A DNA stretch of 64,000 nt from Arthrobacter sp. B3I4 (GTDB lineage Bacteria > Actinomycetota > Actinomycetes > Actinomycetales > Micrococcaceae): NCBI RefSeq assembly GCF_030816855.1, contig NZ_JAUSYK010000001.1, positions 1,116,001 to 1,180,000 on the forward strand, read 5' to 3'. A model generated the notes under the pieces. That model did no database searches. It saw nothing but the letters and a program-made list of their open reading frames with translations, and was not told where the DNA came from. Below, in pieces: positions 1 through 15,300 of this stretch (position 1 is the first letter of the stretch; every line of letters starts with the position of its first letter). Both the position numbers and the translations under genes were made by a program.

Positions 1-1449
1 GGCAGCATTGTTCTCAAGCTCCTTGGAAACCTTGGCGTAGATGTCCTTCCGCTTCTGCGGGTCGGTGCTCGCTTTACCTTCGGCGAAGAGGGCGTCAAGG
101 GCTGGGGAACTGTAGCCCGCCACCTTGTTGAGGTTGCCGGTGCTGGTGAAGTAGCGCCCGTACATGCCATCCGGATCCGGGCGGCCGCCGTTGAGGGCCA
201 CCGCTGCGTCAAAGTCGCCAGCCTTCCACCGGGTAACGAAAGCGCCTGACTCCAGCACTTCCACGTTGAGGGTGATCTTCGCTTCGGCGAGCTGGGACTT
301 CAGATTCTGGGCCTCGTCCACTGAAGTGGCGTACTCGCCCTGGGAGACGATGGTTGAGAGCGTCACGCCGTCTTTCTTGCCAGCCTTGCTGAGGTAGTCA
401 GCGGCCTTGGAGAGATCCCGTTTAGCGCAAGGGCGGTCGTCCGCGTTGGACTTGAACGCCGGGGAGGTGATCGGTCCGGTGACTTCGCCCTCGCCGAGGG
501 CGGCGGTATCGAGCACCTGCTGCCGGTCCACGGCGCACTGGATGGCCAAGCGGACGTTGACGTCCTGCAGGTCCCCCCGTCGGGCGTTCAGCTGCAGGGC
601 GTGGTAGCTGAGTTGAGGCGTCTTAGCGACGGACATGTTGGGCCCCGCAGCAGTTTTAGCCACCAAAGGGCTGTTGAACACGGCGAAATTCACGTTGCCG
701 GACTGCATCGCCGAAACGATGGAGTTTTCATCAGGAATGACGCGCATCTCCACGGTGTCGAGCTTGGCCTTGTCTCCCCAGTAGGAATCGTTACGGGCAA
801 GCTTCAGCGACTGACTCGCGACCCGGTCCTTCAAAGCGAACGGGCCAGTACCGTTGGGAGCCTTCATAAGGGACTGCTCCGCGTCGTCCGAGGACAGAAT
901 CGCCATATTCACGACGGCGAGATTGGATGGCAGGGCAGCGTCCGGAGCGGACAGTCGCAGGACAACAGTGGCGGGGTCCGGGGCCTCCACTGCCGTCACG
1001 GCTGCCAGGGATGTACGGGCGACAGCACCTGTAGCTTCCTCTCTGATCTTGTCCAGGGAGAACTTGACGTCCTTGGAGTCGAAGGCACTGCCGTCGCTGA
1101 ACTTGACGCCCTCCCGGAGCTTAAACGTCAGGGTTTTTCCGGCATCCGACGCCTCCCAGGACTTCGCCAGGCCGGGAACGACCGCCAAATCCTTATCGAA
1201 CTCTGTCAGCGTTCCATAGATGTTCTGCAGAACAGAGACCGCCTGGAACTGGGTGGCTTTCCAGGGAAGGAGGGTGTCCGGATCGGTGGTGATCCCTACG
1301 ACCAGGTTTCCGCCGGAGTTTCCGGCCTTGCCGGCCGTCGCACCCGTTGGGGCGGACTGGGCGCCGCAGCCAGTAATGGTGACGGACACTGCTGCGGCTA
1401 TTGCGAATGCCGAAAGCGTGCCACGGATGAATCGGGAACCGCTGTGCAT
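1..1449 (-). CDS. ABC transporter substrate-binding lipoprotein, family 5 (oligopeptide type), partial
   Basis: Extracytoplasmic solute receptor of a peptide/nickel/opine-type ABC importer (SBP_bac_5 family). The gene reads leftward from ATG 1447-1449 and runs off the window edge, leaving 483 codons. Residues 1-28 form a lipoprotein signal with a lipobox ending Thr-Gly-Cys (Cys28), so the protein should be lipid-anchored outside the membrane. Family-typical segments follow: NLVVGITTDPDTLLPW, then GLAKSWEASDAGKTLTFKLR, GVKFSDGSAFDSKDV and NGTGPFALKD. Upstream on this strand is a GGAG-like ribosome site. It is divergent from the RpiR-family regulator at 1652, with a shared 202-bp control region, and nagB follows that regulator. 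Uptake of amino-sugar-containing peptides is therefore a reasonable inference, but the substrate is not readable from sequence. The permease and ATPase genes must lie left of the window. Confidence 0.9.
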   Translation of the reverse strand, partial: MHSGSRFIRGTLSAFAIAAAVSVTITGCGAQSAPTGATAGKAGNSGGNLVVGITTDPDTLLPWKATQFQAVSVLQNIYGTLTEFDKDLAVVPGLAKSWEASDAGKTLTFKLREGVKFSDGSAFDSKDVKFSLDKIREEATGAVARTSLAAVTAVEAPDPATVVLRLSAPDAALPSNLAVVNMAILSSDDAEQSLMKAPNGTGPFALKDRVASQSLKLARNDSYWGDKAKLDTVEMRVIPDENSIVSAMQSGNVNFAVFNSPLVAKTAAGPNMSVAKTPQLSYHALQLNARRGDLQDVNVRLAIQCAVDRQQVLDTAALGEGEVTGPITSPAFKSNADDRPCAKRDLSKAADYLSKAGKKDGVTLSTIVSQGEYATSVDEAQNLKSQLAEAKITLNVEVLESGAFVTRWKAGDFDAAVALNGGRPDPDGMYGRYFTSTGNLNKVAGYSSPALDALFAEGKASTDPQKRKDIYAKVSKELENNAA

Positions 1450-1651
1450 GGTTTGGTCTCCTCAGTGACAAGTGATGCCTCCTGCCATGCCGCACCGGCT
1501 GTTGCAGGTCCCCCAGAGAGCATCGATGATCCGGGTTGGTCATTAACTTACCCATGTGACCTGAATCATGTAAAGATATTCCGCAGAAGAGTTTTGCGAC
1601 GTCGGTCCCTTGAAGACTGACGTCCGATGAACATGTTGAAGAGGGAGCAGA

Positions 1652-2554
1652 ATGGCGAAGAGCGCAGTAAATGCCGCGGACTCTGAAGCGGTGCTGATTC
1701 GCATTCGCGCAGCTTTGCCCTCGCTGCGGCCGTCTGAAAGACGTATCGCTCAGGTGTTCGTGGACAGTCCGTCGGAGGGCGCCACCCTGTCGGTGGCCGA
1801 ACTTGCCGACCGTTGTGAAACGTCCACCACATCGGTGGTGCGTTTCTATAAACGAATGGGGTACTCCCACTACAAGGACCTTCTGATGGACCTCACACGG
1901 GAGGCCATGCGTCAAGAAATGACCACTTCGAGCCTCCCGCCGGTTTCCGGAGACATTGGGCGCAACGATTCTCTCGACGTCATTGTGGCCAAAGTGGCCA
2001 TCAACGAGACTCTGTCAATTTCAGACACGGCACGGTCACTGGATACAGAGGCCCTGGGACAAGCAGTGACGCTGATAACAGGATCCCGCCGGATCGACAC
2101 CTTCGGTATGGGCGCCGGCTCGCTGGTCGGCCTTGACCTGCAACAAAAACTTTCACGTGTCGGCCGCACGGTGATCAACTGGTCGGACCCTCATTCGGCC
2201 TGGACGGCTGCCGCGACGCTGGACTCCTCCTGCGTGGCCATTGCTATATCGCATTCCGGTCGCACCGGTGACACGGTGGATTTCCTTACAGTCGCGCGCG
2301 AATCCGGGGCGGCCACCATAGCAATCACCAACTTTCACACCTCGCCGGTCGCTTCAGCGGCCGACGTCGTGCTGACGACGTCGGCGAGGGAGAGCGCGTT
2401 CCGGTCCGGCGCCCTTGGCAGCCGTATCGCCCAGCTCATGGTGGTCGACTGCCTCTTTACGGCGGTAGCCCAAGCTTCCTACGACACCTCGGTGGAGGCG
2501 TTACGCAACACCTACAGGGTTGTCCATGACCGCAGCCAGGGCGGCGCCCGGTAG
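1652..2554 (+). CDS. MurR/RpiR family transcriptional regulator (HTH + SIS)
   Basis: DNA-binding regulator of 300 aa with the two-domain build of the RpiR/MurR family. The N-terminal winged helix-turn-helix (about residues 10-85) includes LRPSERRIAQVFVDSP and a recognition segment ETSTTSVVRFYKRMGY. A C-terminal SIS sugar-phosphate isomerase domain (about 125-260) contains FGMGAGSLVGLDLQQKL and the phosphosugar-binding type segment AISHSGRTGDTVDFL. ATG 1652 is preceded by AGGGAGCAG. It stands divergent to the solute-binding lipoprotein and 72 bp upstream of nagB, so its effector is probably an amino-sugar phosphate and its targets probably these two neighbours (inference). The 202-bp divergent region should hold its operator, but I cannot single one out confidently. 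Confidence 0.93.
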   Translation: MAKSAVNAADSEAVLIRIRAALPSLRPSERRIAQVFVDSPSEGATLSVAELADRCETSTTSVVRFYKRMGYSHYKDLLMDLTREAMRQEMTTSSLPPVSGDIGRNDSLDVIVAKVAINETLSISDTARSLDTEALGQAVTLITGSRRIDTFGMGAGSLVGLDLQQKLSRVGRTVINWSDPHSAWTAAATLDSSCVAIAISHSGRTGDTVDFLTVARESGAATIAITNFHTSPVASAADVVLTTSARESAFRSGALGSRIAQLMVVDCLFTAVAQASYDTSVEALRNTYRVVHDRSQGGAR

Positions 2555-2626
2555 CGCCAGCGGCACACGACGCCGGTCGGCAGACCGTTTTTGTTCCGCA
2601 CAGGGCCGTTTACGAATTGGAGAACA

Positions 2627-3439
2627 ATGGAAGTCATCATTGCCGCGACGCCTGGCCAGGTCGGGTGCATCGCCGCAGGAGTCATCGCGGGGATTGTCGG
2701 CAAAAAACCGGACGCCGTCCTTGGCCTCGCGACGGGCAGTTCTCCCATGGTCGTCTACGCAGAACTCGCCAGGATGCGTCACGACGCCGAAATTGACCTG
2801 GTTGCGACACGGGGCTTCGCTCTGGACGAGTATGTTGGGCTCGCGCCCGGGCACCCGGCCCGCTACGCCGCCGTCGTGCAACGGGACATCGTGGAACCGC
2901 TCGGCATGACGCCTGAAAACGTGACGGTCCCCGACGGCGGGAGCCTCGATCACGAGCAGGCCTGCAGGGACTTCGAAGCAGCGATCAGCCGCTCAGGCGG
3001 TGTTGATGTCCAAATCCTCGGCATCGGTACCAACGGCCATATCGGTTTCAATGAGCCAACGTCGTCGCTGACGTCCCGCACCAGGGTCAAGACACTCACT
3101 GAGCAGACGAGGGCCGACAACGCCCGCTTCTTCAACACCGCCGACGAAGTCCCGAGGCATTGCATAACTCAAGGACTGGGCACGATCTTTGAAGCCAGGC
3201 AGCTGCTTCTTGTCGCGCAGGGAAAGGGCAAAGCCCGAGCCCTCGCTGCGGCTATAGAAGGCCCCTTGTCGAGCATGTGCCCCGCGTCGTTGTTGCAACT
3301 CCACCCGCGTGCAACGGTAGTCATCGACGAAGCCGCCGCAGGCGACCTCGCCCTCACCGATTACTACCGCTATGCGTTCGACAACAAACCAGCTTCGAGT
3401 GGTGTGCGGTTCGGGCAAGGTCCCTGCGGCCAGGGTTAG
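2627..3439 (+). CDS. nagB: Glucosamine-6-phosphate deaminase
   Basis: Converts glucosamine-6-phosphate to fructose-6-phosphate plus ammonia in cytoplasmic amino-sugar catabolism. It is 270 aa from ATG 2627, close to the usual 260-270. I prefer ATG 2627, preceded by GGAG, over the in-frame TTG at 2591, because the protein family starts at MEVII. Visible landmarks are GLATGSSPMVVYAEL near the N-terminus (phosphate loop), the active-site segment GFALDEYVGL, and GIGTNGHIGFNEPTSSL. The last residues after DNKPA (SSGVRFGQGPCGQG) do not look like the usual short C-terminus. The sequence changes immediately to a truncated ABC transporter, so the 3' end probably abuts a recombination junction. The enzyme core is complete and it should be functional. 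It is probably controlled by the preceding RpiR-family regulator. Confidence 0.95.
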   Translation: MEVIIAATPGQVGCIAAGVIAGIVGKKPDAVLGLATGSSPMVVYAELARMRHDAEIDLVATRGFALDEYVGLAPGHPARYAAVVQRDIVEPLGMTPENVTVPDGGSLDHEQACRDFEAAISRSGGVDVQILGIGTNGHIGFNEPTSSLTSRTRVKTLTEQTRADNARFFNTADEVPRHCITQGLGTIFEARQLLLVAQGKGKARALAAAIEGPLSSMCPASLLQLHPRATVVIDEAAAGDLALTDYYRYAFDNKPASSGVRFGQGPCGQG

Positions 3440-3452
3440 CAGGCAGCCGGCG

Positions 3453-4081
3453 ACCGGAGACGGCAAGACAACCCTGGGGAAACTGATGATGCGCTCTTAC
3501 GAGCTTGACACCGGGAAGATCGCGCTCGACGGCGTGGACGTGGCGCTGATGTCCCGGCATGAGCTGCGCTCGCGGATGGGCATGGTGCTGCAGGACACCT
3601 GGCTGTTCGGCGGGACCATCCGGGACAACATCGCCTACGGCCGGCCCGGTGCGTCGGAGGCGGAGATCCTGGAGGCGGCTAAGCGACGTATGTGGACCGG
3701 TTCGTGAAGTCCCTGCCGCAGGGCTACGACACCGTGCTCGACGACGAGGGCGGCAACGTCTCGTCGGGGGAGAAGCAGCTGCTGACCATCGCCCGGGCGT
3801 TCCTGGCCCGACCCTCGGTGCTGATCCTGGATGAGGCCACATCCTCGGTGGATACCCGCACCGAGGTGCTGGTGCAGAAGGCGATGAGCGCTCTACGGTC
3901 GGACCGGACGTCGTTCGTCATTGCCCACCGGCTCTCCACTATCCGCGACGTCGACCTCATCCTGGTGATGGAAGCCGGGCAGATCGTGGAGCAGGGCACG
4001 CACGCGTCGCTGCTGGAGGCCGGTGGGGCGTATGCCCGGCTGTACGAAGCCCAGTTCGCGGCGCCGGTGGCGGAGGTTTAG
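3453..4081 (+). pseudogene. Multidrug-type ABC transporter, ATPase remnant (5'-truncated and frameshifted)
   Basis: Only the nucleotide-binding domain of an MsbA/LmrA-like exporter survives. It begins inside Walker A (GDGKTTLGKLMMR) right after the nagB end. The transmembrane domain that should precede it, about 350 residues, is absent. Following are the Q-loop (GMVLQDTWLFGGTIRDNIAY), a signature motif variant ([14 protein letters not shown]), Walker B ([13 protein letters not shown]) and the H-loop ([10 protein letters not shown]), ending at TAG 4079-4081. The frame breaks at 3683/3684. The DNA reads AAG-CGACGTATG, whereas adding one G (AAG-GCG-ACG-TAT-GTG) restores the expected [11 protein letters not shown], so one base is missing. 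Truncation plus frameshift make this a clear relic. It sits at the boundary between chromosomal nagB and the low-G+C accessory island. Confidence 0.85.
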
Positions 4082-4257
4082 ATGCGCTTACCTCGGACCG
4101 CTAGAAGGACCGCTGGCCAGCCGGCCGAGCTCGGGATGTACGAGTACCGCCGTTGTTGCAGGGAAAACGTCATGCGCCGACCTCTCATGGCACCGCGACT
4201 GACCATTTACGGCCGGCTCCGAAAGGCTTTAGAACTCTGGCCAGCGTTGGCTTCTTT

Positions 4258-4809
4258 CTAGTGCTGACCCGTCAGTCTCGTCAGCTGGCAACTAACGTCG
4301 GCCAGTTGGTTCCCACACTCGTCGAGCCAAGACTCCTGAGCCGAGGGCGAAATCTCAAGCCACCATGTTTCATTCGAACCGGCCCCGGTGTGCTGTCCCC
4401 TAGTGCCAATGACGTGCCTATCTAGGATCTCCTTTGGTATCAACCATGCGTTCATGTCGAAGGGGGCTAAGCCAAAGCACAGGCAATAGTCGTAGTCCCG
4501 GTCTCGAATCTGTTGAAATCGGTAGAAGCCAGAGTCCCAAAGGGTGGAGAACTTCACCTGAACAAGCACGCCGTTTAAGTCAAGGTAAGGCTGGTTGTCC
4601 ATGTAGACCTGTTCGGGGAAAATCCCAAGAGTATGTGCCCATGAAGTGACGAGCTGTCGCGCTACAGCCCCCTTGGTGGCGGACGGGAGGGCGAGCACCC
4701 ATTTGAAGGGACTTTCATCCCATATTTGAGTTCCTGGATGCTGTGTCTCCAGCCCATGAAGTATACGTCTCAGGAACTCGAAGTCCCTTTCGGAACGAAA
4801 ATTGACCAT
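4258..4809 (-). CDS. PD-(D/E)XK-like restriction endonuclease-type protein
   Basis: Protein of 183 aa, starting at ATG 4807-4809 after a strong GAGGGGGG ribosome site. Residues 77-86 (DLNGVLVQVK) fit a degenerate PD-(D/E)XK nuclease core with Asp77, Gln84 in place of the usual Glu, and Lys86; QxK variants are known in this superfamily. The segment FYRFQQIRDRDYDYCLCFG (residues 95-113), followed by WLIPKEI, is characteristic of small restriction-endonuclease-like proteins. It has no recognisable DNA-recognition domain, so specificity is unknown. It lies 414 bp downstream of a D12 adenine methylase on the same strand, as expected for the cutting partner of a restriction-modification pair. The function is inferred from motif and context. 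Codon use is less G/C-biased than in flanking chromosomal genes. Confidence 0.55.
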   Translation of the reverse strand: MVNFRSERDFEFLRRILHGLETQHPGTQIWDESPFKWVLALPSATKGAVARQLVTSWAHTLGIFPEQVYMDNQPYLDLNGVLVQVKFSTLWDSGFYRFQQIRDRDYDYCLCFGLAPFDMNAWLIPKEILDRHVIGTRGQHTGAGSNETWWLEISPSAQESWLDECGNQLADVSCQLTRLTGQH

Positions 4810-5223
4810 TACGACGACCCCCCTCGGTTCGGCGCGGCGACGAATGTCTCCCCTTTGGATTCAAGAATACCTTTAGCCAACCTGACGTGTATATTTTCCT
4901 TTTGTTCGTGAGATCGCTCGCTTTTCTGCTCCATTCGTCTCTCGGTGGGGAGAAGCCGTGCTGACGATTGCCGGGCCTTCTCGGACCGGCGGTAAGGGTT
5001 GCAGTCAACCGCTCGGGGAGGGCCGTCTCTGAATCAGTTGCCGGTTTCGCTCTGTCCTGGTGGATGGTCCGGGCCGCCGTGATGGGAAGCCCCGTCTCCT
5101 GCGGTTGCCGGACGTGAACCAGTTCAGACCGCGGATGCTCGTCATCGATGAACACCGGACCCGGTCCGCGCGCTACTTCCAGGCCTCTTCGCCGCCCCTG
5201 GCGCGGCCGGGTGTCGGTATCTC
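4810..5223. other. Intergenic stretch between nuclease-like gene and D12 methylase
   Basis: This 414-bp stretch has no gene I can support. An open frame on the minus strand spans 4715-5155. Its translation is rich in Arg/Pro/Thr, matches no family I know, and overlaps the start of the nuclease-like gene. The section around 4960-5200 is much higher in G+C than 4810-4940, so the stretch may be a patchwork of older chromosomal and island DNA. Confidence 0.4.
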
Positions 5224-6132
5224 CTAAGAGAGCAGTTCCATGCGCTTTTTTCGGAAGCTCGCGGCCGAAATCCCGCTAGGACTTAATTCGTCGGGCAGAA
5301 CGAGCTCCGGTGCATGGAAGATCACTTCGGAGCCCTTGGACGATTTAGCGGCGCTGTAGCTAAGCCCGTAATGGAGCGAGTCCTGGGCTTCGTAAAGGCG
5401 CAGTATGGCAGGGGCGGCGTCGTAGGAGACGATCCAAGGATGCGCCAGGCGGGAAACGGAGGCTGCGACTTCTGCGTGATCCTGATGCTCGTAAAAGTTG
5501 TCGTACAACCCCTCACCCTTCACGTAATACGGGGGGTCGAGATATAAAAACGCGGGGGGCTGTTCAGGTTCGGCCCATGACATGACGAACTCTACTGCAT
5601 CGATTTTGGTGAGGCTAATGCGTGACTTGAAGCGCGATATCTTTCGAATGCGCTGCACTAAGTTGTCTTTGTTAAACCTGGCATCAATTTTCCACGGGCC
5701 GTCTTGTTTAAGGCCACCTATGATGCCGCCGCTGATAATGCCTGAGCGGTTTGTCCGGTTGAGGAAGAAAGTCGAGAAGCCTAGCTCAAGAGTGGATGGC
5801 GAGATACTTCTCTGGACATCCTTCTGAAAGTGCCACTCTTCAACCGAAACTTCCGTCGTTTCTATAAGGGAACAGAGTGCATCCGTGTCATTCAGCACTG
5901 AGTGCCAGAACGCGTGTACGCCCTCGTTGAGGTCATTGATGTGGATATGGCCCGCATAGTCTTCGAACAGCAGTGACAGCGCTACGCTGGCTCCGCCTGC
6001 GTAGGGTTCGACGTAGTCTGAGCCCAAGAGATCGTTTTTCAGCATTATGAGCTTGATGTAGTTGGCAATCTTTCCTTTACCCCCGGGGTAGCGCAGAGGG
6101 GAGGGGAAACGTGCTGCAGCGGCCCCTGTCAT
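5224..6132 (-). CDS. D12-class DNA N6-adenine methyltransferase (Dam-like)
   Basis: Transfers a methyl group from S-adenosylmethionine to adenine in DNA. It is 302 aa with all D12 family landmarks in the usual order: PSPLRYPGGKG (residues 11-20, the N-terminal SAM-binding lysine motif), YVEPYAGGAS (40-49, motif I), FFLNRTNRSGI (122-132) and the catalytic DPPYY (199-203, motif IV). The start codon overlaps the stop of the upstream ParB-fold gene as ATGA (6129-6132), so the two are translationally coupled. A nuclease-like gene lies downstream on the same strand. It probably marks host DNA so that the island's nuclease spares it. An orphan or phage-derived Dam-like role is the alternative. The recognition sequence cannot be read from the protein. 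Confidence 0.9.
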   Translation of the reverse strand: MTGAAAARFPSPLRYPGGKGKIANYIKLIMLKNDLLGSDYVEPYAGGASVALSLLFEDYAGHIHINDLNEGVHAFWHSVLNDTDALCSLIETTEVSVEEWHFQKDVQRSISPSTLELGFSTFFLNRTNRSGIISGGIIGGLKQDGPWKIDARFNKDNLVQRIRKISRFKSRISLTKIDAVEFVMSWAEPEQPPAFLYLDPPYYVKGEGLYDNFYEHQDHAEVAASVSRLAHPWIVSYDAAPAILRLYEAQDSLHYGLSYSAAKSSKGSEVIFHAPELVLPDELSPSGISAASFRKKRMELLS

Positions 6133-7481
6133 TGCCAGACCACCTGAAGAAATGGTTGCAGTTCGTCCCAGGCGGTTCGGACTTCGCTAGCCTTAGGAAT
6201 CACGTATTTGTTATGTACGTACTGATTGAAGGTCATCGCAGACGCCGCTATGGTGTCCTGCGAATCGGCGATCTTGTACATGGCGCGCTTGAGCTGCTGG
6301 TCAAGGAGGTCTTCCGAGTGAAGTTTGTCCACGACTTTCTTCAATCGTTTTGACAATGGGGTGTTCATGCGTTCTTGTTCGGTCATCAAAGAGTATTCGG
6401 CAATTCCGTGATCTACCGTTAGTTCGAGGAATACGCGGAGCATCACTACGCCGGCGTTGGGAAACGTGTCCGCGTCGAGAGAGGTGAGTTCATTAAAAAT
6501 ACCGTTGAGGCGGGGAGGGGCGGGATTGATGCCGCAGTTCTTCATCGCCACGGACGTTCGCGGCGCTTTGGTGCGGGTCTTGGGTCTGGGTTTCGGCTTC
6601 AGGGGCGGAACACCGGAAGAGGAGGCCTTGCCTGCGTCTGCAAGAATCACGGGCGAAGCGATGCGTGTCGCTGGGTCGGGAAGTTCGGATGCGGAGAATT
6701 CTTTCAGATAGGCGACCCGGTCACTGGCCTCATAGACATCCTTTACTTTGATGGTCCCGCTACGGAGGTCGGTGACCATACGGCGCAGCCCCTTTATCAC
6801 CTCAGCTGCAGGGAAATGCGTCACGACCTGTCCACCCACAAAGTCGATTCCGAGCGTTTCCCTGATCTCCTTGGTATTCAGGATTCGCTGAAGGGTCGTC
6901 ATAATCCGCGTTTTGGATGAACTGGGCCCATCTACACTGTCGACGTAGTCGAGGATCTGTCCCGCAGTACTCCTTGGCCGGTTCTGCCCATGGCGGCTGA
7001 GGAACCGGTCCTGTTCGTTAGCGTCCCATTCAACTAGGCCTGCACCTTCGTTTGCCCCAGTGTGCCTGAGGGTAACCCAGTGAAAGGCGTCATCTTCGTT
7101 ATCGAAAAGAACGCAGGTGAGCTCGTCCACGGGGTCTTTCTCGAAGAGCTTTGCGAGCTCACCGAGTCGGCGCTGCTCGCTAGGACTGAGTCCACCGCTG
7201 ACAATCATCGGATTGTCAAGCGCCTTCAGCGCCAAGACCCGTCGATTTCCTTCGATAACCCTGTACTTCCTACGCTGGTCATCAGTAGCGACAACAGCGG
7301 GCAGGTTGGTGGGATCCGTGCCGTGCTTGACGATGTTCTCAGCCAAGTTCACCAGCCGCTTAGCCTGCTGCTTTGCGAGGGTTACGTAGACCTGCTGTTG
7401 CGAAGCCTGTTCATCCCCAAGCCGTGCATTTTTTTGGTCCAAGAGCAGATCTGCCAAAGGAACACTGACGGTTTCAGGCAC
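6129..7481 (-). CDS. ParB N-terminal-domain protein with C-terminal helical domain
   Basis: Protein of 450 aa starting at GTG 7479-7481 behind GGGGGGAAG. Residues 1-100 form a ParB/Srx-like domain: the opening VSVPLADLLLDQKNARLG and the NTP-binding/catalytic-type motif EGNRR (77-81) followed by VLALKAL. The middle (about 200-260) is helical. A C-terminal domain (about 325-450) is also helical and ends with FNQYVHNKYVIP (418-429) and AWDELQPF. That segment recalls HEPN-like helical bundles, but no canonical RX4-6H motif is visible. It lacks the features of a chromosome-partitioning ParB (no parA partner, no parS). Translational coupling to the D12 methylase argues for joint function, perhaps a CTP- or nucleotide-dependent DNA-sensing or nuclease subunit of a modification/defence module (inference). 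Confidence 0.75.
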   Translation of the reverse strand: MPETVSVPLADLLLDQKNARLGDEQASQQQVYVTLAKQQAKRLVNLAENIVKHGTDPTNLPAVVATDDQRRKYRVIEGNRRVLALKALDNPMIVSGGLSPSEQRRLGELAKLFEKDPVDELTCVLFDNEDDAFHWVTLRHTGANEGAGLVEWDANEQDRFLSRHGQNRPRSTAGQILDYVDSVDGPSSSKTRIMTTLQRILNTKEIRETLGIDFVGGQVVTHFPAAEVIKGLRRMVTDLRSGTIKVKDVYEASDRVAYLKEFSASELPDPATRIASPVILADAGKASSSGVPPLKPKPRPKTRTKAPRTSVAMKNCGINPAPPRLNGIFNELTSLDADTFPNAGVVMLRVFLELTVDHGIAEYSLMTEQERMNTPLSKRLKKVVDKLHSEDLLDQQLKRAMYKIADSQDTIAASAMTFNQYVHNKYVIPKASEVRTAWDELQPFLQVVWQ

Positions 7482-8129
7482 TGACTTCCCCCCAACTCAT
7501 ATTCAGCTCTGTCGTGAGCCACCTAGTCCACAATAGTCATCAACGAATGCCGTGGACACCAACGCCATATCTTGCCTAATCATGTCTCGCTACGCATAGC
7601 CGACAGCGATGCGTGGGACACCCGTTGCGGCGGGAGAACGAGGAGGCGCGTCTGCCATGGTGCGGACAGGGTCAGCGACGGAGGCGGCGCGCTTGTAGTT
7701 GCACGCCTCCCGTCGCAACATCTTCACTAACCCCGCTGAGTCCTGCGCCGTCAGTTGCAGTACCACCGTATCTGTGAAGATTGGCCGGGCCGGGCACTTG
7801 GTGCTGAGCTTGCGGCGGTATGCGCGAAAGCGCTGCCCGGAACTCGCCGCAGGCACTCGTGCTTGGAGTAGACCTGGTCTCGGGTGCCAATCGCCAATCA
7901 AATCTCTGACCCTCCGCGTCGGTCCAGGTGGACTCGAAGCGGCAAGGGCTGAACTGCAGGAAGGCGGCTAGTGCAACGATTCGATGCGTCGGAATGCGAC
8001 CCCGCAAACCCGTCATGCTGTATACCTAATGTCCCTGCTCGGGGTAGCTAAAAGTTTGTCGTAGGATAGGCAAATCTTAGTAACCTTTTGGCGTCCGCAC
8101 GGTGGCGCGTCGTCCTGGGAGTCCGAATC
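7482..8129. promoter_or_regulatory. Divergent intergenic region of the accessory island
   Basis: A 648-bp stretch separates the leftward ParB-fold/methylase operon from the rightward Ntn-hydrolase gene and must contain both promoters. It is A+T-richer near 8040-8100. A minus-strand frame of 103 codons (7590-7901) contains a plausible-looking stretch but has no ribosome site or recognisable homology, so I do not call it. No repeat or tRNA-like integration target is visible. Confidence 0.4.
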
Positions 8130-8993
8130 ATGACACTGTCAATCGCATGGATTCGAAGTGTGGGAGAAGTTGAAGAACTAGTTTTCGCATCGGATAGCCG
8201 ACTTCGAAATGGGCAAGCATGGGACTGTTGCCCGAAGATAATGTCGTTGCCTCGATCAGACTGTCTCATTTCATTTGCGGGAGATACTCAATACGCATAT
8301 CCACTCATGCTGCAAATGATCCAAGCCATTGACATGTATGCTCCTTCCAGTGACCGGAGAACCGATATCACGGTCGCAAAGAGGCATGCGCTCGAAGTGT
8401 TTAATCAGATGCGCTCTTTGATTCACGATTTTCCTCGCGGCGTCTCAAGCGCTGGTGATCCGGAGGCCGGTTTTCTTTTCGGTGGTTATTCGTGGCGTCA
8501 ACAGGAATTCCTCATATGGCAACTCCACTATGATGCCTCAATTGATAGGTATACTTTTCGACCGGTCCATAAGTGGGCAAAAGGAAACTCCAAGAAGGCC
8601 ATAGCATTCACCGGCGACGTGACCGTCGAAGCCAAGAATCGGCTCATAGACCTACTGAGGGACCGTGGGAAGTTGAGGAATGGCGGCTTCGACATGGAAC
8701 CCTTCGAGGTTCTTCGCGACATGATTAGATCCAACGAATACCCCACCGTTGGTGGCGCTCCCCAAGTGGCGAAGGTTTACAGATTCCTTCGATCCCAGCA
8801 TTTCGCCGTGCGATGGCCGGATGCCAGCGGCCTTCCCCACGCTTTGGGCCGTCCAGCGTTGACCTACGCCAGCGCCGAAGGGGAGCCGCCGGTGCCATAT
8901 GAGAGATTTGACGTGCCCGTAATTGACCCTGATAGCCCGGAGCGCCATTCAAGACACAGTAAAGAAGGCCAAGACGTTCTCTGGACGAAGTAG
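8130..8993 (+). CDS. Ntn-hydrolase (proteasome beta-subunit-like) protein of the island
   Basis: Protein of 287 aa from ATG 8130, which has GGGAG 8 nt upstream; this start is clearly better than the longer in-frame extension to 8088. It begins MTLSIAWIRS. Removal of Met exposes Thr as residue 1, the hallmark nucleophile of proteasome-like Ntn-hydrolases. Counting from this Thr, Asp21 lies in LVFASDSR and Lys35 in CCPKI, spaced like the Thr1/Asp17/Lys33 triad of HslV and proteasome beta subunits. A further SFAGDTQYAYPL segment and a C-terminal GGAPQVAKVYRFLR/VRWPD region follow. There is no ATPase partner nearby. It lies divergent to the D12/ParB pair, suggesting membership of the same accessory module. 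Enzymatic activity is inferred from the N-terminal pattern only. Confidence 0.6.
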   Translation: MTLSIAWIRSVGEVEELVFASDSRLRNGQAWDCCPKIMSLPRSDCLISFAGDTQYAYPLMLQMIQAIDMYAPSSDRRTDITVAKRHALEVFNQMRSLIHDFPRGVSSAGDPEAGFLFGGYSWRQQEFLIWQLHYDASIDRYTFRPVHKWAKGNSKKAIAFTGDVTVEAKNRLIDLLRDRGKLRNGGFDMEPFEVLRDMIRSNEYPTVGGAPQVAKVYRFLRSQHFAVRWPDASGLPHALGRPALTYASAEGEPPVPYERFDVPVIDPDSPERHSRHSKEGQDVLWTK

Positions 8994-9034
8994 GCCGGAC
9001 GGGTGGCGCGCTGGTTGGGAATCCCGCTTTTCTA

Positions 9035-9050
9035 GTGCGCGGAAGCGCAC
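9035..9050 (+). other. Hairpin downstream of the Ntn-hydrolase gene
   Basis: GTGCGC (9035-9040), loop GGAA, then GCGCAC (9045-9050) form a perfect 6-bp stem with a stable tetraloop 41 bp after the stop codon. No T-run follows, so it is at best a weak terminator or an mRNA-stabilising hairpin. Confidence 0.35.
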
Positions 9051-9116
9051 CGAGACCATCAACGGCCGCAGGGTGCAGTAGCGACCGGTGCAAGAGATAC
9101 AAGAATGTTCACCATC

Positions 9117-9818
9117 TCAAACGAGCGGCCAGGGATAGCGCATCCCCGTCCGGTCCACCGGCAGTGACCCCGCAACCAGCATCCGCTGCACTCGCCGCTG
9201 CAGGGCGGTGACCTCGTCGTCGTCGAGCAGTTCCGCCAACTCGGCGGGGACGGTCTCCGCGAGCTGAGCGATGTCGGCCAGCAGGGCCTCCGGAATCGGC
9301 TCGCCGGCGAAGTCCCAGATCACGGTGCGCAGTTTGAAGGCCGCGGAGAAGCAGAGTCCGTGGTCGATGCCCCAGATCCGGCCGTCGTCGCCGCGGAGCA
9401 CGTGGCCGCTTTTGCGGTCGGTGTTGTTCGCGACAAAGTCGAACAGCGCGATCCGGGCGAGATCAGGATGGGTCTCGGGGGCGTCCTCGAACAGTGTGAA
9501 GTAGTGCTGCTGGAAATCGCACTCGATGAACCACTGCAGCGAGCCGACGCCCAGGGGAGCGTCGTCACGGATCACGGTCGGCGGGACGAAGCCCCAGCCC
9601 AGCGACTCGCTCAGCACGTAGGCGGCGCGTTCGCGCTTGTAGAGCCCGGGCTCGAAGTCGGAGAGCGGACGTTCGCCGGCCTCCGGTTTGTAGACCGCGT
9701 ACCCCTCGTCCTCGCCGCAGGTGACCTGGACCAGGAACGTCTGGTTGCTGCTGCGCGGGATGAGGCCGAGCAGCTCGATGCTGCCCTCGGTCAGCAGAGT
9801 CAGTTCGCGGCCGGACAC
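9117..9818 (-). CDS. SCO1664 family protein (phosphatidylinositol kinase-like fold)
   Basis: Protein of 233 aa of the conserved actinobacterial SCO1664 family, distantly related to PI3/4-kinase-like folds. Typical elements are YAVYKPEAGERPLSDFE (nucleotide-lysine region), RERAAYVLSESLGW, FDFVANNTDRKSGHVL (catalytic-loop-like Asn-Asn-Xaa-Asp) and IWGIDHGLCF (DFG-like metal region). It is 25 bp downstream of an MSMEG_4193-type phosphomutase on the same strand, a well-known partner. In many actinobacteria a DUF3090 gene stands between or beside these two, and it is missing here. Biochemical function is unknown; the fold implies a phosphotransferase. Confidence 0.88.
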   Translation of the reverse strand: MSGRELTLLTEGSIELLGLIPRSSNQTFLVQVTCGEDEGYAVYKPEAGERPLSDFEPGLYKRERAAYVLSESLGWGFVPPTVIRDDAPLGVGSLQWFIECDFQQHYFTLFEDAPETHPDLARIALFDFVANNTDRKSGHVLRGDDGRIWGIDHGLCFSAAFKLRTVIWDFAGEPIPEALLADIAQLAETVPAELAELLDDDEVTALQRRVQRMLVAGSLPVDRTGMRYPWPLV

Positions 9819-9843
9819 GATCGCTCCCGCCTCCGAAACCGAT

Positions 9844-10518
9844 TCATGACGCCCGGAGCCCGCTGAGCGGTTCCGCCGTCGAATTCACCATCAGCACCGC
9901 AGGGTCCTGGCCCTCCACAAACGTGATGGCCGAGACCGAGCCAGGGCTGATCATGATCCGCTGGAACAGGTCCAGCGGCGTGCCCAGGGCGTGGGCCACT
10001 GCGGCCTTGATGGGATCGGCGTGGGAGAAGCACACCACCACACCCCCTGCGTGGGCCGCGCACAGCGCCTCCATCGCGCCGACAATCCGGTTCTGCATTT
10101 CCGGGAAGCTCTCGCCGTCCGGGAAGCGGAACTGGGACGGGCTGTGCTGCACTGTCTGCCACTCCGGCACGGCCGCCAGGTCTGCGATCGCGGAGCCGGT
10201 CCAGCCACCGAAATCACACTCCAGCAACCCGTCGTCGTGCTTCACGGCCAGCCCCGTGCGTGCCGCCGTCGGCTCCGCCGTCTCACACGCGCGCTCCAGC
10301 GGGGAGGAGTAGAGGGCATCCACCGGCAGTCCGGCGAGCCGGTCCGCGACCCGTTCGGCCTGCTCCCGGCCGCGGTCGGAGAGGTGCAGCCCCGGCGCGC
10401 GGCCCGGCAGGACGGATCCCGTAGTCGGCGTCTGGCCGTGGCGCACCAGCAGCAAGAGGGTGCCCGGACGCGCGGGGGCGGGAGGAGGAGTTGATTCAAC
10501 TGCAGTTGCTGTAGCCAT
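9844..10518 (-). CDS. MSMEG_4193 family histidine phosphatase/phosphomutase
   Basis: Histidine phosphatase superfamily enzyme of 224 aa. The catalytic phosphohistidine motif is LLLVRHGQT, followed by the second-half motifs YSSPLERACETAE and VVVCFSHADPIKAA (second catalytic His). I prefer ATG 10516-10518 over the ATG two codons upstream, because a -10-like TAGGCT (complement of 10527-10532) lies 8 nt before it, consistent with a leaderless transcript, while the upstream ATG would be only 2 nt from the -10. It is co-transcribed with the SCO1664-family gene. The substrate is unknown for this family. Confidence 0.9.
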   Translation of the reverse strand: MATATAVESTPPPAPARPGTLLLLVRHGQTPTTGSVLPGRAPGLHLSDRGREQAERVADRLAGLPVDALYSSPLERACETAEPTAARTGLAVKHDDGLLECDFGGWTGSAIADLAAVPEWQTVQHSPSQFRFPDGESFPEMQNRIVGAMEALCAAHAGGVVVCFSHADPIKAAVAHALGTPLDLFQRIMISPGSVSAITFVEGQDPAVLMVNSTAEPLSGLRAS

Positions 10519-10655
10519 CAGCATCCAGCCTATCGTTCACCGCCTGCCCCGTACCTCGCAAGCTCGGCCCGGGGACCCCGGGCGGCTCTCTTAGCCAAGC
10601 GTCCGGATGCGCAGGAATCTCACCAAATCCCTCGATTCCCCGCCGGGTACAGGTC

Positions 10656-10667
10656 TACGGTGGAGGA
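10656..10667 (+). promoter_or_regulatory. -10 box of a probable leaderless mRNA for the AAA+ gene
   Basis: TACGGT (10656-10661) fits the actinobacterial TANNNT -10 box and ends 6 nt before the GTG at 10668. The GGAGGA between them is too close to the start to act as a normal ribosome site, so leaderless translation is the simplest reading. Confidence 0.45.
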
Positions 10668-12056
10668 GTGAGTGATCGCCCCGAAATCTTCACTGTTGGT
10701 GAACTGCATGCCTCCGGCCACGTCCACAAGGACCTGCGCCGCGAGATCCGCGATAACCTGCTGGCCGCGCTCGCCGCCGGCCGCGACCCGTGGCCCGGGA
10801 TGTACGGCTTCAGCCGCACCGTCCTGCCGCAGCTCGAACGCGCCCTGCTGGCCGGGCACGACGTCGTCCTGCTCGGCGAACGCGGGCAGGGCAAGACCCG
10901 GCTGCTGCGCACCCTGGCCGGGCTGCTGGACGAGTGGTCGCCGGTGATCGAGGACTCGGAACTGAACGAACACCCCTACGACCCCATCACCGAACACTCC
11001 CGCGCCCTCGCCCTCACCGAGGGGGACCGGCTGCGGGTGGCGTGGCGGCACCGCTCCGAACGGTACGTCGAGAAGCTCGCGACGCCGGACACCTCCGTCG
11101 CGGACTTGATCGGCGACGTCGACCCGATGCGGGTGGCCGAGGGCCGCCGCCTGGGCGACCCGGAAACCATCCACTACGGCCTGGTGCCGCGCTCCAACCG
11201 CGGCATCATCGCCATCAACGAACTCCCCGACCTCGCCGAGCGGATCCAGGTCTCCATGCTCAACGTGATGGAGGAACGCGACATCCAGATCCGCGGCTAC
11301 GTGCTGCGGCTGCCGCTGGACGTCCTGGTGGTCGCGTCCGCCAACCCCGAGGACTACACCAACCGCGGCCGGATCATCACCCCGCTGCGGGACCGCTTCG
11401 GCGCCGAGATCCGCACCCACTACCCGATCGAGCTCGAGGACGAGGTGGCCGTCATCGAACAGGAAGGCCAGCTGGTGGCCGGCGTCCCGCCCGTCATCCT
11501 CGAAATCCTGGCCCGCTACACCCGGGCACTGCGGCAGTCCCCGGCGATCAACCAGACCTCCGGGGTGTCCGCGCGGTTCGCGATCGCCGGCGCCGAAACC
11601 GTCGCCGCCGCCGCCCTGCGCCGGGCCAGCGTGCGCGGCGAGGACCACGCCGTCGCCCGGATCATCGACCTGGAGGCCGCCGTCGATGTCCTCGGCGGCA
11701 AGATCGAGTTCGAATCCGGCGAGGAAGGCCGGGAACAGGACATCCTGGACCACCTGCTGCGGATGGCCACCGCCGAGGCCGTCCGGGCGCACTTCCACGG
11801 CATCGACATGGGTGACCTCGTCGCCGCGCTGGACGGCCACACCACGGTTACCACCGGCGAATTGGTCACCGCGCGGGAGTTCCTGGAAGGCCTCCCGTCG
11901 CTCAACGGATCGAGCCTCTACGACGAGATCGGTGAGCGCCTGGGCGCGGAGAACGACGGGCAGCGCGCCGCCGCCGTCGAACTGGCCCTCGAAGGCCTCT
12001 ACCTCGCCCGCCGGATCTCCAAGGACTCCGACGACGAGGAAACGGTTTACGGCTAG
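10668..12056 (+). CDS. AAA+ ATPase, magnesium chelatase ChlI/MoxR-like
   Basis: ATPase of 462 aa. It has Walker A GERGQGKTRLLR (about residues 65-76), a Walker B region GIIAINELPDLAERIQ and a sensor segment VVASANPEDYTNRGRII. This matches the helical-insert AAA+ clade of ChlI and MoxR-type chaperones. The GTG start at 10668 directly follows GGAGGA, and a TANNNT -10 box suggests leaderless translation. Twenty-seven bases downstream begins a VWA-domain protein on the same strand. The ATPase/VWA pair is a widespread two-gene unit thought to load metals or remodel protein complexes. No chlorophyll or cobalamin genes are nearby, so the target here is unknown. Confidence 0.93.
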   Translation: MSDRPEIFTVGELHASGHVHKDLRREIRDNLLAALAAGRDPWPGMYGFSRTVLPQLERALLAGHDVVLLGERGQGKTRLLRTLAGLLDEWSPVIEDSELNEHPYDPITEHSRALALTEGDRLRVAWRHRSERYVEKLATPDTSVADLIGDVDPMRVAEGRRLGDPETIHYGLVPRSNRGIIAINELPDLAERIQVSMLNVMEERDIQIRGYVLRLPLDVLVVASANPEDYTNRGRIITPLRDRFGAEIRTHYPIELEDEVAVIEQEGQLVAGVPPVILEILARYTRALRQSPAINQTSGVSARFAIAGAETVAAAALRRASVRGEDHAVARIIDLEAAVDVLGGKIEFESGEEGREQDILDHLLRMATAEAVRAHFHGIDMGDLVAALDGHTTVTTGELVTAREFLEGLPSLNGSSLYDEIGERLGAENDGQRAAAVELALEGLYLARRISKDSDDEETVYG

Positions 12057-12083
12057 GCAGTCCCAAGGCTTACAGGAGGGCCC

Positions 12084-14084
12084 ATGACCGCTCACCACCG
12101 GTCCCGGTACAGCCGCTACGCGGGCGGGCCGGATCCGCTCGCCCCGCCGGTGGACCTGGCGGAGGCGCTCGACGCCGTCGCCGAGGACGTCATGGCCGGC
12201 TACTCGCCCCGGCACGCCCTGCAGGAGTACCTTCGGCGCGGCGGCCGGAACCGGGAAGGACTCGACGACCTCGCCGGCCGGGTGCAGCAGCGGCGCAAGG
12301 ACCTGCTGGGCCGGCACAAGCTGGACGGGACGCTGAACGAGGTCCAGAAACTGCTGGAGACCGCGGTGCTGGAGGAGCGCAAGCAGCTGGCCCGCGACGT
12401 GCGGATGGACGACACGGACCGCGCCTTCCGCGAGATGCAGCTGCAGAACCTGCCAAAGTCCACGGCCGCGGCGGTCAACGAGCTCGCCTCCTACGACTGG
12501 CAGTCCAGTACCGCCCGGGAAGCGTACGAGCAGATCAAGGACCTGCTGGGCCGGGAGATCCTGGACCAGCGCTTCGCCGGCATGAAGCAGGCGCTCGAGG
12601 GCGCCACCGAGGAGGACCGCGCGGTCGTCGCCGAGATGCTGGGCGACCTCAACGAACTGCTCGACAAGCACCGCCGCGGCGAGGACACCGACGCGGACTT
12701 CCAGGAGTTTATGACCAAGCACGGCGAGTTCTTCCCGGAGAACCCGCAGTCGGTCGAGGAGCTGATCGACGCGCTCGCCGAGCGCGCGGCCGCCGCTCAG
12801 CGGATGCTGCGCTCCATGTCCGCCGAGCAGCGCGAGGAACTGATGCAGCTTTCCGCCCAGGCGTTCGGCTCGCCGGAGCTTATGGCACAGCTGGGCCAAC
12901 TCGATGCGAACCTGCAGGCCCTGCGCCCCGGCGAGGACTGGTCCGGCTCCGAACAGTTCGACGGCGAGGAGGGGCTAGGCCTCGGCGACGGCACCGGCGT
13001 GCTGCAGGACCTCGCCGAACTGGACGAACTCGCCGAGCAGCTCTCCCAGTCCTACAACGGCTCCCGGCTGGATGACCTGGACCTGGAGGCCCTGGGCCGC
13101 CAGTTGGGGCAGGACGCGGCCGTCTCGGCGCGGACGCTCGCGGAGATTGAAAAGGCCATGCACGACGGCGGCTTCCTGCAGCGCAACGCCGACGGGGACC
13201 TGAAGCTCTCGCCGCAGGCCATGCGGCGACTGGGCCGGTCGCTGCTGCGGGACACCGCCAAACAGCTCTCCGGCCGGCAGGGCCGACGGGACACCCGGGC
13301 CGCCGGGGCGGCGGGGGAGCAGACCGGGTCCAGCCGGCCCTGGGAGTTCGGCGACGCCGAACCCTGGGATGTCACCCGTACCATCACCAACGCCATCCGC
13401 CGCACCATCGCCGACGGCGGCGACTCGCGCCGCGGGCTGCGGCTGGCCGTGGACGACATCGAGGTGACCGAGACCGAGGCCCGAACCCAAGCCGCCGTCG
13501 CCCTGCTGGTGGATGTGTCCTTCTCGATGGCCGCGGAGGGGCGCTGGGTGCCGATGAAACGAACCGCGCTGGCCCTGCACCACCTGGTGTCGACTAAGTT
13601 CCGCGGTGACCGGCTGCAGCTGATCGCGTTCGGCCGTTACGCGCAGTCGATGGACATCGGCGAGCTGATGGCCTCGCCGGCGCTGCGGGAACAGGGCACC
13701 AACCTGCACCACGGCCTGCTGCTCGCCGGCCGCTTCTTCCGCAAGCACCCGTCCATGCAGCCGGTTCTGCTGGTGGTGACCGACGGCGAACCTACCGCGC
13801 ACCTGCTGGCCGACGGCGACTCGTGGTTCAACTGGCCGCCGGACGCGGAGACCATCCGCGTCACCGTTGCCGAGCTGGACCGGCTGGGCCGTTCCGGTGT
13901 GCAGGCCACGTTCTTCCGGCTGGGGAACGACCCGGGGCTGGAACGGTTCATCCAGAAGATGGCCCGCCGGGTCGACGGCCGCGTGGTGGCTCCTGAGGCC
14001 GGGGACCTGGGCGCCGCCGTCGTCGGCGAGTACCTCCGCGCGCACTTCCGGGGGCAGGCGTACAGCGACGACGACTGGGCGTAG
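12084..14084 (+). CDS. VWA (von Willebrand factor A) domain protein, ChlD/CoxE-like
   Basis: Protein of 666 aa paired with the AAA+ ATPase upstream, with an AGGAGGG ribosome site before ATG 12084. The first 450 residues are charged and helical (many Glu/Leu/Arg heptad-like stretches, likely coiled coil). The C-terminal VWA domain (about 470-650) has the metal-ion-dependent adhesion site LLVDVSFSMA (DxSxS), the conserved Thr in REQGTNLHHGLLLAGRFF and the Asp in VLLVVTDGEPTAHL. By analogy with ChlI/ChlD and MoxR/VWA pairs, it should bind a Mg2+-dependent partner and be remodelled by the ATPase. It is cytoplasmic, with no signal peptide or membrane segment. Confidence 0.93.
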   Translation: MTAHHRSRYSRYAGGPDPLAPPVDLAEALDAVAEDVMAGYSPRHALQEYLRRGGRNREGLDDLAGRVQQRRKDLLGRHKLDGTLNEVQKLLETAVLEERKQLARDVRMDDTDRAFREMQLQNLPKSTAAAVNELASYDWQSSTAREAYEQIKDLLGREILDQRFAGMKQALEGATEEDRAVVAEMLGDLNELLDKHRRGEDTDADFQEFMTKHGEFFPENPQSVEELIDALAERAAAAQRMLRSMSAEQREELMQLSAQAFGSPELMAQLGQLDANLQALRPGEDWSGSEQFDGEEGLGLGDGTGVLQDLAELDELAEQLSQSYNGSRLDDLDLEALGRQLGQDAAVSARTLAEIEKAMHDGGFLQRNADGDLKLSPQAMRRLGRSLLRDTAKQLSGRQGRRDTRAAGAAGEQTGSSRPWEFGDAEPWDVTRTITNAIRRTIADGGDSRRGLRLAVDDIEVTETEARTQAAVALLVDVSFSMAAEGRWVPMKRTALALHHLVSTKFRGDRLQLIAFGRYAQSMDIGELMASPALREQGTNLHHGLLLAGRFFRKHPSMQPVLLVVTDGEPTAHLLADGDSWFNWPPDAETIRVTVAELDRLGRSGVQATFFRLGNDPGLERFIQKMARRVDGRVVAPEAGDLGAAVVGEYLRAHFRGQAYSDDDWA

Positions 14085-14493
14085 TAGTCCAGGTGTGGGC
14101 GGCACGGTACTTGTCGAATTTCGCCGCCCGGTGCAAGCAGCCGAGACCGAGCTGCGCCGGCACATTCCAATAACGCCGCGGAACTTTGCCAGCGAACACA
14201 AAGCACCACACTTTTCTTGCCCAGAAGCGCCGGCAGCAAATCGTTGAAACTGCTGGCACCGTTTTCTAAAAGAGTTTGCGAGTAGCCCTAGGATAAACAA
14301 AACCTCATTACTTTCCGAGTTTTAGATCTCGACGTCGAGCCAAGATTGTGCCGGAGCATTGTTATTTGAAGTTAGGGGGCGCTGAGCCGTGAGCAGCGCC
14401 ACGGTGCTCCGAGCCGCCCGGGTGCTGGGCGAAGGCCCCGAAGAGGGGTTGCTGCCGGGCGCCTCACCCTCGGACTTGGGGCTTTTCTGAAAA
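14085..14493. other. Structured intergenic region upstream of the 44-aa gene
   Basis: About 410 bp without a supportable protein gene. Two foldable segments are evident. GGCGCTG (14378-14384) pairs with CAGCGCC (14394-14400). GAG-cc-GCCCGG (14411-14421) pairs with CCGGGC-gc-CTC (14455-14465) and encloses CCCC (14436-14439)/GGGG (14445-14448). GGGGCTTTT follows at 14478-14486. The layout suggests a small structured RNA or a terminator complex, but I recognise no known RNA family. A promoter lies just downstream at 14494. Confidence 0.35.
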
Positions 14494-14522
14494 CTGGCAC
14501 AAAAAAAATAAACGTGTATGGT
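14494..14522 (+). promoter_or_regulatory. Sigma-70-type promoter for the 44-aa protein
   Basis: -35 CTGGCA (14494-14499), 17-bp spacer containing an A8 tract, and -10 TATGGT (14517-14522). The spacing is ideal, and the start of the small gene lies about 35 nt downstream of the predicted transcript start. Confidence 0.55.
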
Positions 14523-14559
14523 CATTGGTACACGCAAAGCACAGAAAGGTGTGATTCCG

Positions 14560-14694
14560 TTGTCCGGAAAATCGCTTAAGAGTGGTAGTGCCAAAAAAGC
14601 AGGAAAGACGATTCTCGAAAAGCGGGCCCAGAAAAGAGCTAAAAGCGAAACTAGTGAACTTCAGTTCGTGAAGCCGCGCAAGAATCAGCGCTAA
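14560..14694 (+). CDS. Small basic protein (44 aa)
   Basis: TTG start at 14560 with AAAGG ten bases upstream, and TAA at 14692-14694. The 44-residue product begins MSGKSLKSGSAKKAGKTILE and ends VKPRKNQR. It contains about 14 Lys/Arg and no hydrophobic core, so it is probably disordered or nucleic-acid/ribosome-associated. Very short, Lys-rich proteins with a terminal KPRK-type tail are, to my knowledge, widespread but uncharacterised in actinobacteria. A well-spaced promoter directly upstream supports expression. An alternative in-frame GTG at 14551 is too close to the ribosome site. Confidence 0.65.
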   Translation: MSGKSLKSGSAKKAGKTILEKRAQKRAKSETSELQFVKPRKNQR

Positions 14695-14841
14695 TATGCC
14701 GCGGGCGGCCGGACGCGAGACTCCTAGCCCGCTCGGCCGCCTGCACCTCTTCTCCCGCGATGTAGACGCCGTCGCCCAGCAACGCCAGGCACCCGGAGGT
14801 GCCTCGCATTTCGTGTAAGCCCAAAGACAAGAAACAGAACC

Positions 14842-15300
14842 ATGAACACCACCTACGACGCCTTGATCGTCCCCGCCCAACTCACCCAGCCCGTGCGGAT
14901 TGAAAGGGTGGACGTCGATGTCGATGTTCTGCAGGAACTGGTGGGAGGGAACGTGGAGTCCCTCCCCGGTCCGGACTGGCACGTCTACTTTAACGATGAG
15001 GGCGGGCGGCTGCCGCAAAACGATCGGGCGGAAGTCCTCATCCGCGAAGCAGGCGCCGATCTCGATGAGACTTTCAAGGGGACGGGCGTCTTCCTGGGCC
15101 ACGGTCCTAGCGGTGAAGAAGCCAGCGCCCCCGCTCACCTCATCCGGCTCGCCGAGCAGCTCTTCGCTGCCAGGCTTCAGCCCGCGCTGCCCAGTCTGTC
15201 CAGCGCGCGACGCCCTCAGTCCGAGGACGGGGAGCCGGTCTCCGCCGTAGCGGACACATCTGCACCCACGCCCGCATACGACGCCGAAACCCGGCGGTAG
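14842..15300 (+). CDS. DUF3846-like protein
   Basis: Protein of 152 aa. The first about 110 residues resemble DUF3846: an opening MNTTYDALIVPAQLTQPVRI, then ELVGGNVESLPGPDWHVYFNDEG and the polar NDRAEVLIREAG. Such proteins occur singly on plasmids, phages and actinobacterial chromosomes; their function is unknown. The last about 28 codons overlap, tail to tail, the 3' end of the MFS gene on the other strand (15216-15300). This part is Ala/Pro/Ser-rich, as expected for antisense reading of membrane-protein code, so the C-terminus was probably extended by loss of an earlier stop. The ribosome site before ATG is weak (AGACAAGAAA). Confidence 0.6.
   Translation: MNTTYDALIVPAQLTQPVRIERVDVDVDVLQELVGGNVESLPGPDWHVYFNDEGGRLPQNDRAEVLIREAGADLDETFKGTGVFLGHGPSGEEASAPAHLIRLAEQLFAARLQPALPSLSSARRPQSEDGEPVSAVADTSAPTPAYDAETRR

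Follow-up and report, generated by a model that had tools for sequence, protein, structure and literature searches.

Does a run of four accessory genes in the chromosome of Arthrobacter sp. B3I4 encode one defence system, or are its genes neighbours that share a site? The window analysed here is a stretch of 64,000 nucleotides (positions 1,116,001-1,180,000 of a single-contig 3.61-Mb genome, labelled G000), which carries at 4258-8993 genes for a restriction endonuclease (REase)-like protein, a D12 methylase, a ParB-fold protein and an N-terminal nucleophile (Ntn) hydrolase. A preliminary description had joined these four into a single undescribed defence-like module. Our analysis indicates instead that the locus very probably combines a complete PD-Lambda-5 pair with an independent gene of a REase branch and an independent Ntn gene, standing side by side and not forming one machine. 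All four open reading frames (ORFs) were present at the positions given for them, and the low G+C content that had drawn attention to the region was borne out, with 4258-8993 being poorer in G+C (0.557) than any same-length stretch taken every 500 bases in the window (mean 0.657, minimum 0.559). Third-position G+C ranged from 0.55 to 0.65 across the four genes; three genes on the right had 0.84-0.92, and one gene on the left had 0.71. The features, with protein lengths in amino acids (aa), are as follows.

4258-4809, minus strand: REase-like gene, 183 aa, predicted relative of the type II REase family PDLC03515; not part of PD-Lambda-5
4810-5223, no strand: intergenic gap of 414 bases that separates the D12 methylase gene from its REase-like neighbour
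5224-6132, minus strand: predicted PD-Lambda-5 B, a D12-class DNA adenine methyltransferase, 302 aa, PDLC04018
6129-7481, minus strand: predicted PD-Lambda-5 A, 450 aa from a GTG start; a ParB-fold protein with the EGNRR motif, its C-terminal half weakly DUF4145-like
8130-8993, plus strand: predicted proteasome-like Ntn-hydrolase, 287 aa from ATG 8130, with Thr2, Asp22, Lys36 and Gly51; solo gene

The two central genes gave the clearest assignment. The ParB-fold protein matched the PADLOC profile PDLC04008 (PD-Lambda-5_A) with 625 bits and an E value of 2e-188, its residues 1-450 aligning to positions 1-449 of 449, and the D12 methylase matched PDLC04018 (PD-Lambda-5_B) with 390 bits and an E value of 1.5e-117 (residues 8-285 to 3-281 of 291). 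The two genes lie on the same strand and overlap by 4 bases. Because both profiles match and the genes adjoin, 6129-7481 and 5224-6132 are, judged by sequence, a complete PD-Lambda-5 pair, that is, a named anti-phage system, and the description of the system as new was therefore mistaken for this core. The D12 identification itself was sound (Pfam MethyltransfD12, 7e-17, with DPPY present), as was the ParB-type EGNRR motif, which was invariant in 24/24 aligned relatives. Among these 24 members, Pfam DUF4145, which we take to be related to HEPN folds, was matched weakly in 8 and ParB_N weakly in 3 (best E about 0.01). A search of the Protein Data Bank (PDB) with the ParB alignment returned no match.

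The association of the two genes extends well beyond this genome. Context was examined in the best 80 of 280 relatives of the ParB-fold protein, found by profile search in a one-genome-per-species collection, with gene calls in the loci of other genomes made by ORF length only. A D12 methylase gene adjoined the ParB gene in 75/80 of these loci; four of the other five were cut by contig ends, and the last (L018) held only a weaker methylase match 1.3 kb upstream. The record titles of the relatives include Actinomycetota, Bacteroidota, Pseudomonadota, Chloroflexota, Gemmatimonadota and archaea. Among 99 related genomes the family appeared in three, two of the three matches being weak (28% and 35% identity). 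Single-protein scans of virus contigs for the ParB, Ntn and REase proteins gave no match; an alignment search with the ParB family recovered 102 relatives there, of which 80 were kept for context. No recurrent third gene was found beside PD-Lambda-5 when the nearest ORF of 95-700 aa past the methylase was taken from 65/80 loci and 63 of these were scanned, L054 and L061 being left out as apparent copies of listed loci: the 25 most frequent of 284 PADLOC families each matched 4/63, were mostly of ATPase type and included no REase family. As a separate observation, genome G028 of the same genus carries two ParB-like genes of the PD-Lambda-5 kind and, on the other strand, a D12 methylase that is broken into overlapping pieces (L173:4799-10173).

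As to function, the ParB-fold protein and the D12 methylase may act jointly on phage DNA. Host DNA would be marked by the methylase, and the roles of sensor and effector would both fall to the ParB-fold protein with its DUF4145-like tail. Such a division of labour would be in line with the view of the discoverers, who in the accessible text of their paper call PD-Lambda-5 'compacted RM + Abi' (PMC9519451). No study of its mechanism was found in a literature search by title and start of abstract, outside which most subscription papers lie.

The remaining question was whether the flanking REase-like and Ntn genes belong to the same system. Profiles of the REase and Ntn families matched in 0/80 ParB genome loci and 0/80 ParB viral loci. 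Conversely, neither the ParB protein nor the D12 methylase was found in any of 16 other Ntn loci, which reduce to 13 distinct ones (L174-L182, L190, L191, L195-L197, L090 and L091; L182, L190 and L191 represent a single E. coli place, L195 and L196 closely resemble each other, and the gene in L090 lies at a contig end), and ParB, D12 methylase and Ntn were all absent from the seven other full-length REase-family loci, one of which (L251) spans only 4.5 kb. The families are rare and scattered among relatives: the window's genome was the only one of the 99 with more than one of the ParB, Ntn and REase families. The gene-neighbourhood comparison proposed in the preliminary description thus found the four families together in no other locus examined, and the reading as one module fails because the core is a named PD-Lambda-5 system and because the four were not seen to co-occur elsewhere. 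The parts themselves had been recognised correctly, and the proposed link to defence holds for the ParB and methylase genes; the placing of the nuclease-like and Ntn genes in one module with them does not.

These counts bear directly on the idea of one new four-gene system, in which the methylase would mark self, the ParB-fold protein sense, the nuclease cut and the Ntn-hydrolase mature or release a component. Adjacency in one genome and a shared low G+C speak for such a system, but co-occurrence was lacking in either direction (contradicted by the 0/80 and 0/80 loci), the Ntn gene lies, unremarked in the preliminary description, on the opposite strand and 648 bases from the ParB gene, the methylases that partner the REase relatives are of another type, and the two-gene core is already a known complete system; we regard the four-gene system as extremely improbable and, on the co-occurrence data, rejected it. 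Two points nevertheless temper our reading of the genes as independent neighbours. In just 40/80 ParB genome loci did the available sequence extend beyond 4.5 kb upstream and 5.5 kb downstream, and the closest metagenomic relatives (ParB 87%, Ntn 77% and REase 77% identical) lie outside the loci examined, so that a recent local partnership is possible.

The REase-like protein presents a distinct case. Its 183 residues matched the PADLOC type II REase profile PDLC03515 (2e-40), and identity to seven genomic relatives was 44-62%. A PD-(D/E)XK fold was seen in its predicted structure, as the preliminary description had suggested, but the catalytic residues expected of that fold were only partly present: Tyr75 and Gln84 replace the expected Asp and Glu, and Lys86 is kept. 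We compared two sets of sequences drawn up by residue 75, leaving out of the first P0137, a fragment of the window's own REase. Arg51, Tyr75, Gln84 and Lys86 occurred in 29/29 sequences of the Y75 branch, at positions where the other set (D75 in 11/11) has E or K, D, E or Q, and K, respectively. In a phylogenetic tree, one branch with support 96/96 split the methylase-partnered from the solitary REases, and residue 75 (Tyr or Asp) agreed with the tree branch in 15/15 rows. As far as these alignments can tell, the 183-aa protein is an offshoot of the type II REase family with an active site remodelled alike across a branch of 29 sequences. The family is rare, with 1/99 relatives, 1/394 genomes of the class, and 5/206 (one a fragment) and 7/395 in further counts; 13 cyanophage records were found at 30-34% identity, there were 0 plasmid records, and an alignment search of virus contigs gave 0 relatives. 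A PDB sequence search with the REase alignment returned one antibody chain (E 0.12), which was taken as chance and set aside.

The methylases that accompany this family are of a different type from the one in the window. A methylase of N6/N4 type overlaps the REase gene in five of eight full-length loci (window included) and is absent in the other three, and a D12 methylase stood beside the REase in 0/7 other loci. This result bears on the earlier proposal that the nuclease and the D12 methylase form a restriction-modification (R-M) pair. An active type II enzyme paired with the adjacent D12 methylase would suit the gene order, the REase-like gene being on the same strand downstream of the methylase, and the PADLOC label of PDLC03515 as a type II REase; the N6/N4 type of the partners, the missing Asp and Glu and the 414-base gap, however, make such a pair highly unlikely, and it was dropped as the leading view on account of the partner type and the active-site residues. 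In two loci with REase-methylase pairs, a C5-cytosine methylase gene on the opposite strand also adjoins the pair (L193:6186-7205 and L194:6447-7532).

Neither an N6/N4 nor a C5 methylase was matched in window 1-16000, and a tblastn search of window 4600-5400 with six N6/N4 methylases, namely the five partners and the core enzyme described below, yielded no match at E <= 1, giving no partner-methylase remnant in the 4810-5223 gap. The Y75-branch REase lacked a linked methylase, of the types searched for, in all three known contexts (3/3). The window's genome encodes a methylase of PDLC03300 type (578 bits) at a distant position, beside MarC and a DEAD-box helicase.

G000:C1:1759856-1760797 (L230:7854-8798): core orphan N6/N4 methylase, PDLC03300 type

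This gene was detected in 57/79 genomes, comprising 49/49 of the genus (split in G029) and 8/30 others of the order (6 weak), and its product shares 60-64% identity with the partner methylases encoded in L193 and L194, and 58-67% with the five partners taken together. It is present in all three genomes with a solitary REase (G000, G617 and G771); the G771 copy is 78.6% identical over 295 aa and lies beside the same DEAD-box helicase. Apart from its start residue, the REase-like protein of G771 is identical to one listed under Arthrobacter sp. zg-Y20. Most likely, the 183-aa protein would still bind its recognition site but no longer cut in the usual way, or would cut and be tolerated through protection by the core chromosomal N6/N4 methylase of the genus, its likely site-mate.

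The second of these options corresponds to a separated R-M system, in which the REase-like protein would be an active solitary enzyme, protected by the core methylase, with Asp77 replacing Asp75. There are precedents both for separated R-M systems and for orphan methylases that confer protection (Ershova 2012, PMC3488263), and the presence of the core methylase in all three solitary-REase genomes, together with its 60-64% identity to two partner methylases, would fit such an arrangement. Position 77 is non-acidic in 8/29 sequences, however, including the solitary copy L192 (Gln), R51, Y75 and Q84 are fixed in 29/29, and the core methylase occurs in every genome of the genus, so that its presence alongside a solitary REase is expected and provides no independent support. 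Judged by residues and gene content, an active separated enzyme is possible but stays on the doubtful side.

Several observations count against a remodelled, non-cutting branch tied to the core methylase. Tyr75 in the 29 sequences follows from the construction of the set, although R51 and Q84 do not; the tree is an independent check, yet one of 15 rows, 8 of them with known context. Asp77 lies two residues on, in the same strand, and could replace the lost Asp75 here (D or E in 21/29). Gln in place of the Glu of the ExK motif also occurs in 4/5 partnered relatives, and Q84 alone therefore does not mean an inactive enzyme. The case for a common site of the REase and the core methylase is the 58-67% methylase identity, to which the genus-wide distribution of the core methylase adds nothing independent. 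A further proposal goes beyond remodelling: the R51-Y75-Q84-K86 branch (at least 29 distinct sequences) might have given up both normal nuclease chemistry and partner methylase and, carried in variable defence sites, now read the site of the core methylase, whether to regulate, to sense incoming DNA that is unmethylated or to shield the site from competing REases. We consider this speculative and unlikely.

For the fourth gene, the assignment as a Thr-initiated Ntn-hydrolase was upheld, Thr2, the catalytic residues and the predicted fold being in agreement. The longest ORF (8088-8993, plus strand, 301 aa) is better started at ATG 8130, where 13/22 aligned homologues begin exactly (Met-Thr), and GGGAG lies just upstream. 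Thr2 was present in 20/22 rows, D22 and G51 were invariant in the 22 and K36 was found in 90% or more, their equivalence to Thr1/Asp17/Lys33/Gly47 being judged by eye. A proteasome-beta fold was predicted with Thr, Asp, Lys and Gly in place; in the structure comparison one of 50 VIA rows was Anbu, and our statement on structural likeness covers the families listed among the structure rows. The protein had no match in four family libraries, and HslV chains were its sole matches in a PDB sequence search (best E 0.0025).

The Ntn family was found in 4/99 relatives and 4/394 genomes of the class, in 8 plasmid records (one being a 4.94-Mb E. coli record labelled plasmid; 6/8 were examined in context) and, by alignment search, as 2 relatives in virus contigs, with 0 phage records. 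The gene is accessory and stands alone, on plasmids and in islands, and its product is a self-standing predicted proteasome-like Thr hydrolase that probably has its own role as a protease or amidase. An E. coli relative (L190:15001-15834) occurs once each in 126/5426 genomes at >=99% identity, in the chromosome; at the two E. coli places read, it lies beside an integrase and ypjA, with the frame in two pieces.

Could the Ntn gene itself act alone against phages and merely lie with PD-Lambda-5 in a site rich in defence genes? When 54 neighbours of the gene in 13 other loci were scanned, models of SduA (two models), LeoA, LeoBC, PD-T7-5, PD-T7-1 and GajA each matched one protein at E <= 1e-40, and four neighbours matched Phage_integrase. 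These matches were counted without a background control, however, and the other neighbours were phage structural genes, an autotransporter adhesin and unknowns. A putative defence role is a tentative suggestion, somewhat less likely than its opposite. No paper linking such an Ntn or proteasome-like family to phage defence was found by title and start of abstract, most subscription papers lying outside that search.

The chromosomal setting was compared with that in G023, the closest relative found.

4083-9120, no strand: variable site, content unlike that of G023, with matching flanks

A gene flanking the site is 94% identical at the protein level in G023. On the left, window 3453-4082 corresponds to L229 2842-3472 (89% match), and on the right, window 9121-14080 corresponds to L229 9645-14536 (91% match); G023 also holds a second, partial copy of the left flank (window 3528-4084 also matching L229 4331-4887). 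Since other ORFs occupy the interval between matching flanks in G023, the site varies in content. Very probably, accessory genes of separate origin have entered a short variable chromosomal site. In G023 the interior of the site (L229:5205-9490) is taken up by three ORFs (646, 493 and 175 aa) that had no Pfam match and may form a different accessory system. Window 2591-4081, the 'nagB' on the left, runs from a nagB-like ORF into an ABC exporter remnant (3453-4082) split over two reading frames, a point missing from the preliminary description; the exporter gene is intact in G023 (L229:1390-3471, 693 aa). No tRNA was found in the window, no Rfam match in 2000-12000 and no Pfam phage family among 8 ORFs scanned in 2591-9818, and the repeats inspected (20/38 direct families and 25/49 inverted pairs) contained no obvious pair of island ends.

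Collectively, the supposed new four-gene defence system is removed and its core placed in PD-Lambda-5, and two leads remain of interest. One is the remodelled REase branch, predicted to lack a methylase and to have the same swapped active site throughout, in bacteria whose core genes include a methylase of the partner family. The other is the solo proteasome-like gene, which is widespread on plasmids and in islands.

Each element can be set against a known system. The ParB-fold and D12 genes resemble PD-Lambda-5 (Vassallo et al. 2022, PMC9519451) in pairing a ParB-fold A with a D12-type B gene, adjacent and on the same strand; PD-Lambda-5 was first found in an E. coli P2-like prophage, according to the accessible text of PMC10482375, whereas here the genes stand in a chromosomal site. 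The REase-like protein resembles the PADLOC pair of REase PDLC03515 and MTase_II PDLC03300 in profile match, predicted fold and 44-62% identity, but the window copy has no adjacent partner methylase and its active-site residues are swapped. With the solitary REases and separated R-M systems set out in the accessible part of PMC3488263, it shares the lack of a linked methylase and a candidate methylase elsewhere in the genome; the difference is that the candidate here belongs to the core genes of the genus, and that the active site of the REase branch appears remodelled. The proteasome-like family includes HslV, Anbu, BPH and, in the accessible text of Fuchs et al. 2021 (PMC8665760), 22 further families, which the Ntn protein resembles in predicted fold, in its equivalents of Thr1/Asp17/Lys33/Gly47 and in that some members occur in mobile DNA. 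It differs in having no family-library match and HslV alone in the PDB, and the likeness is drawn from sources other than the alignments of the 22 families.

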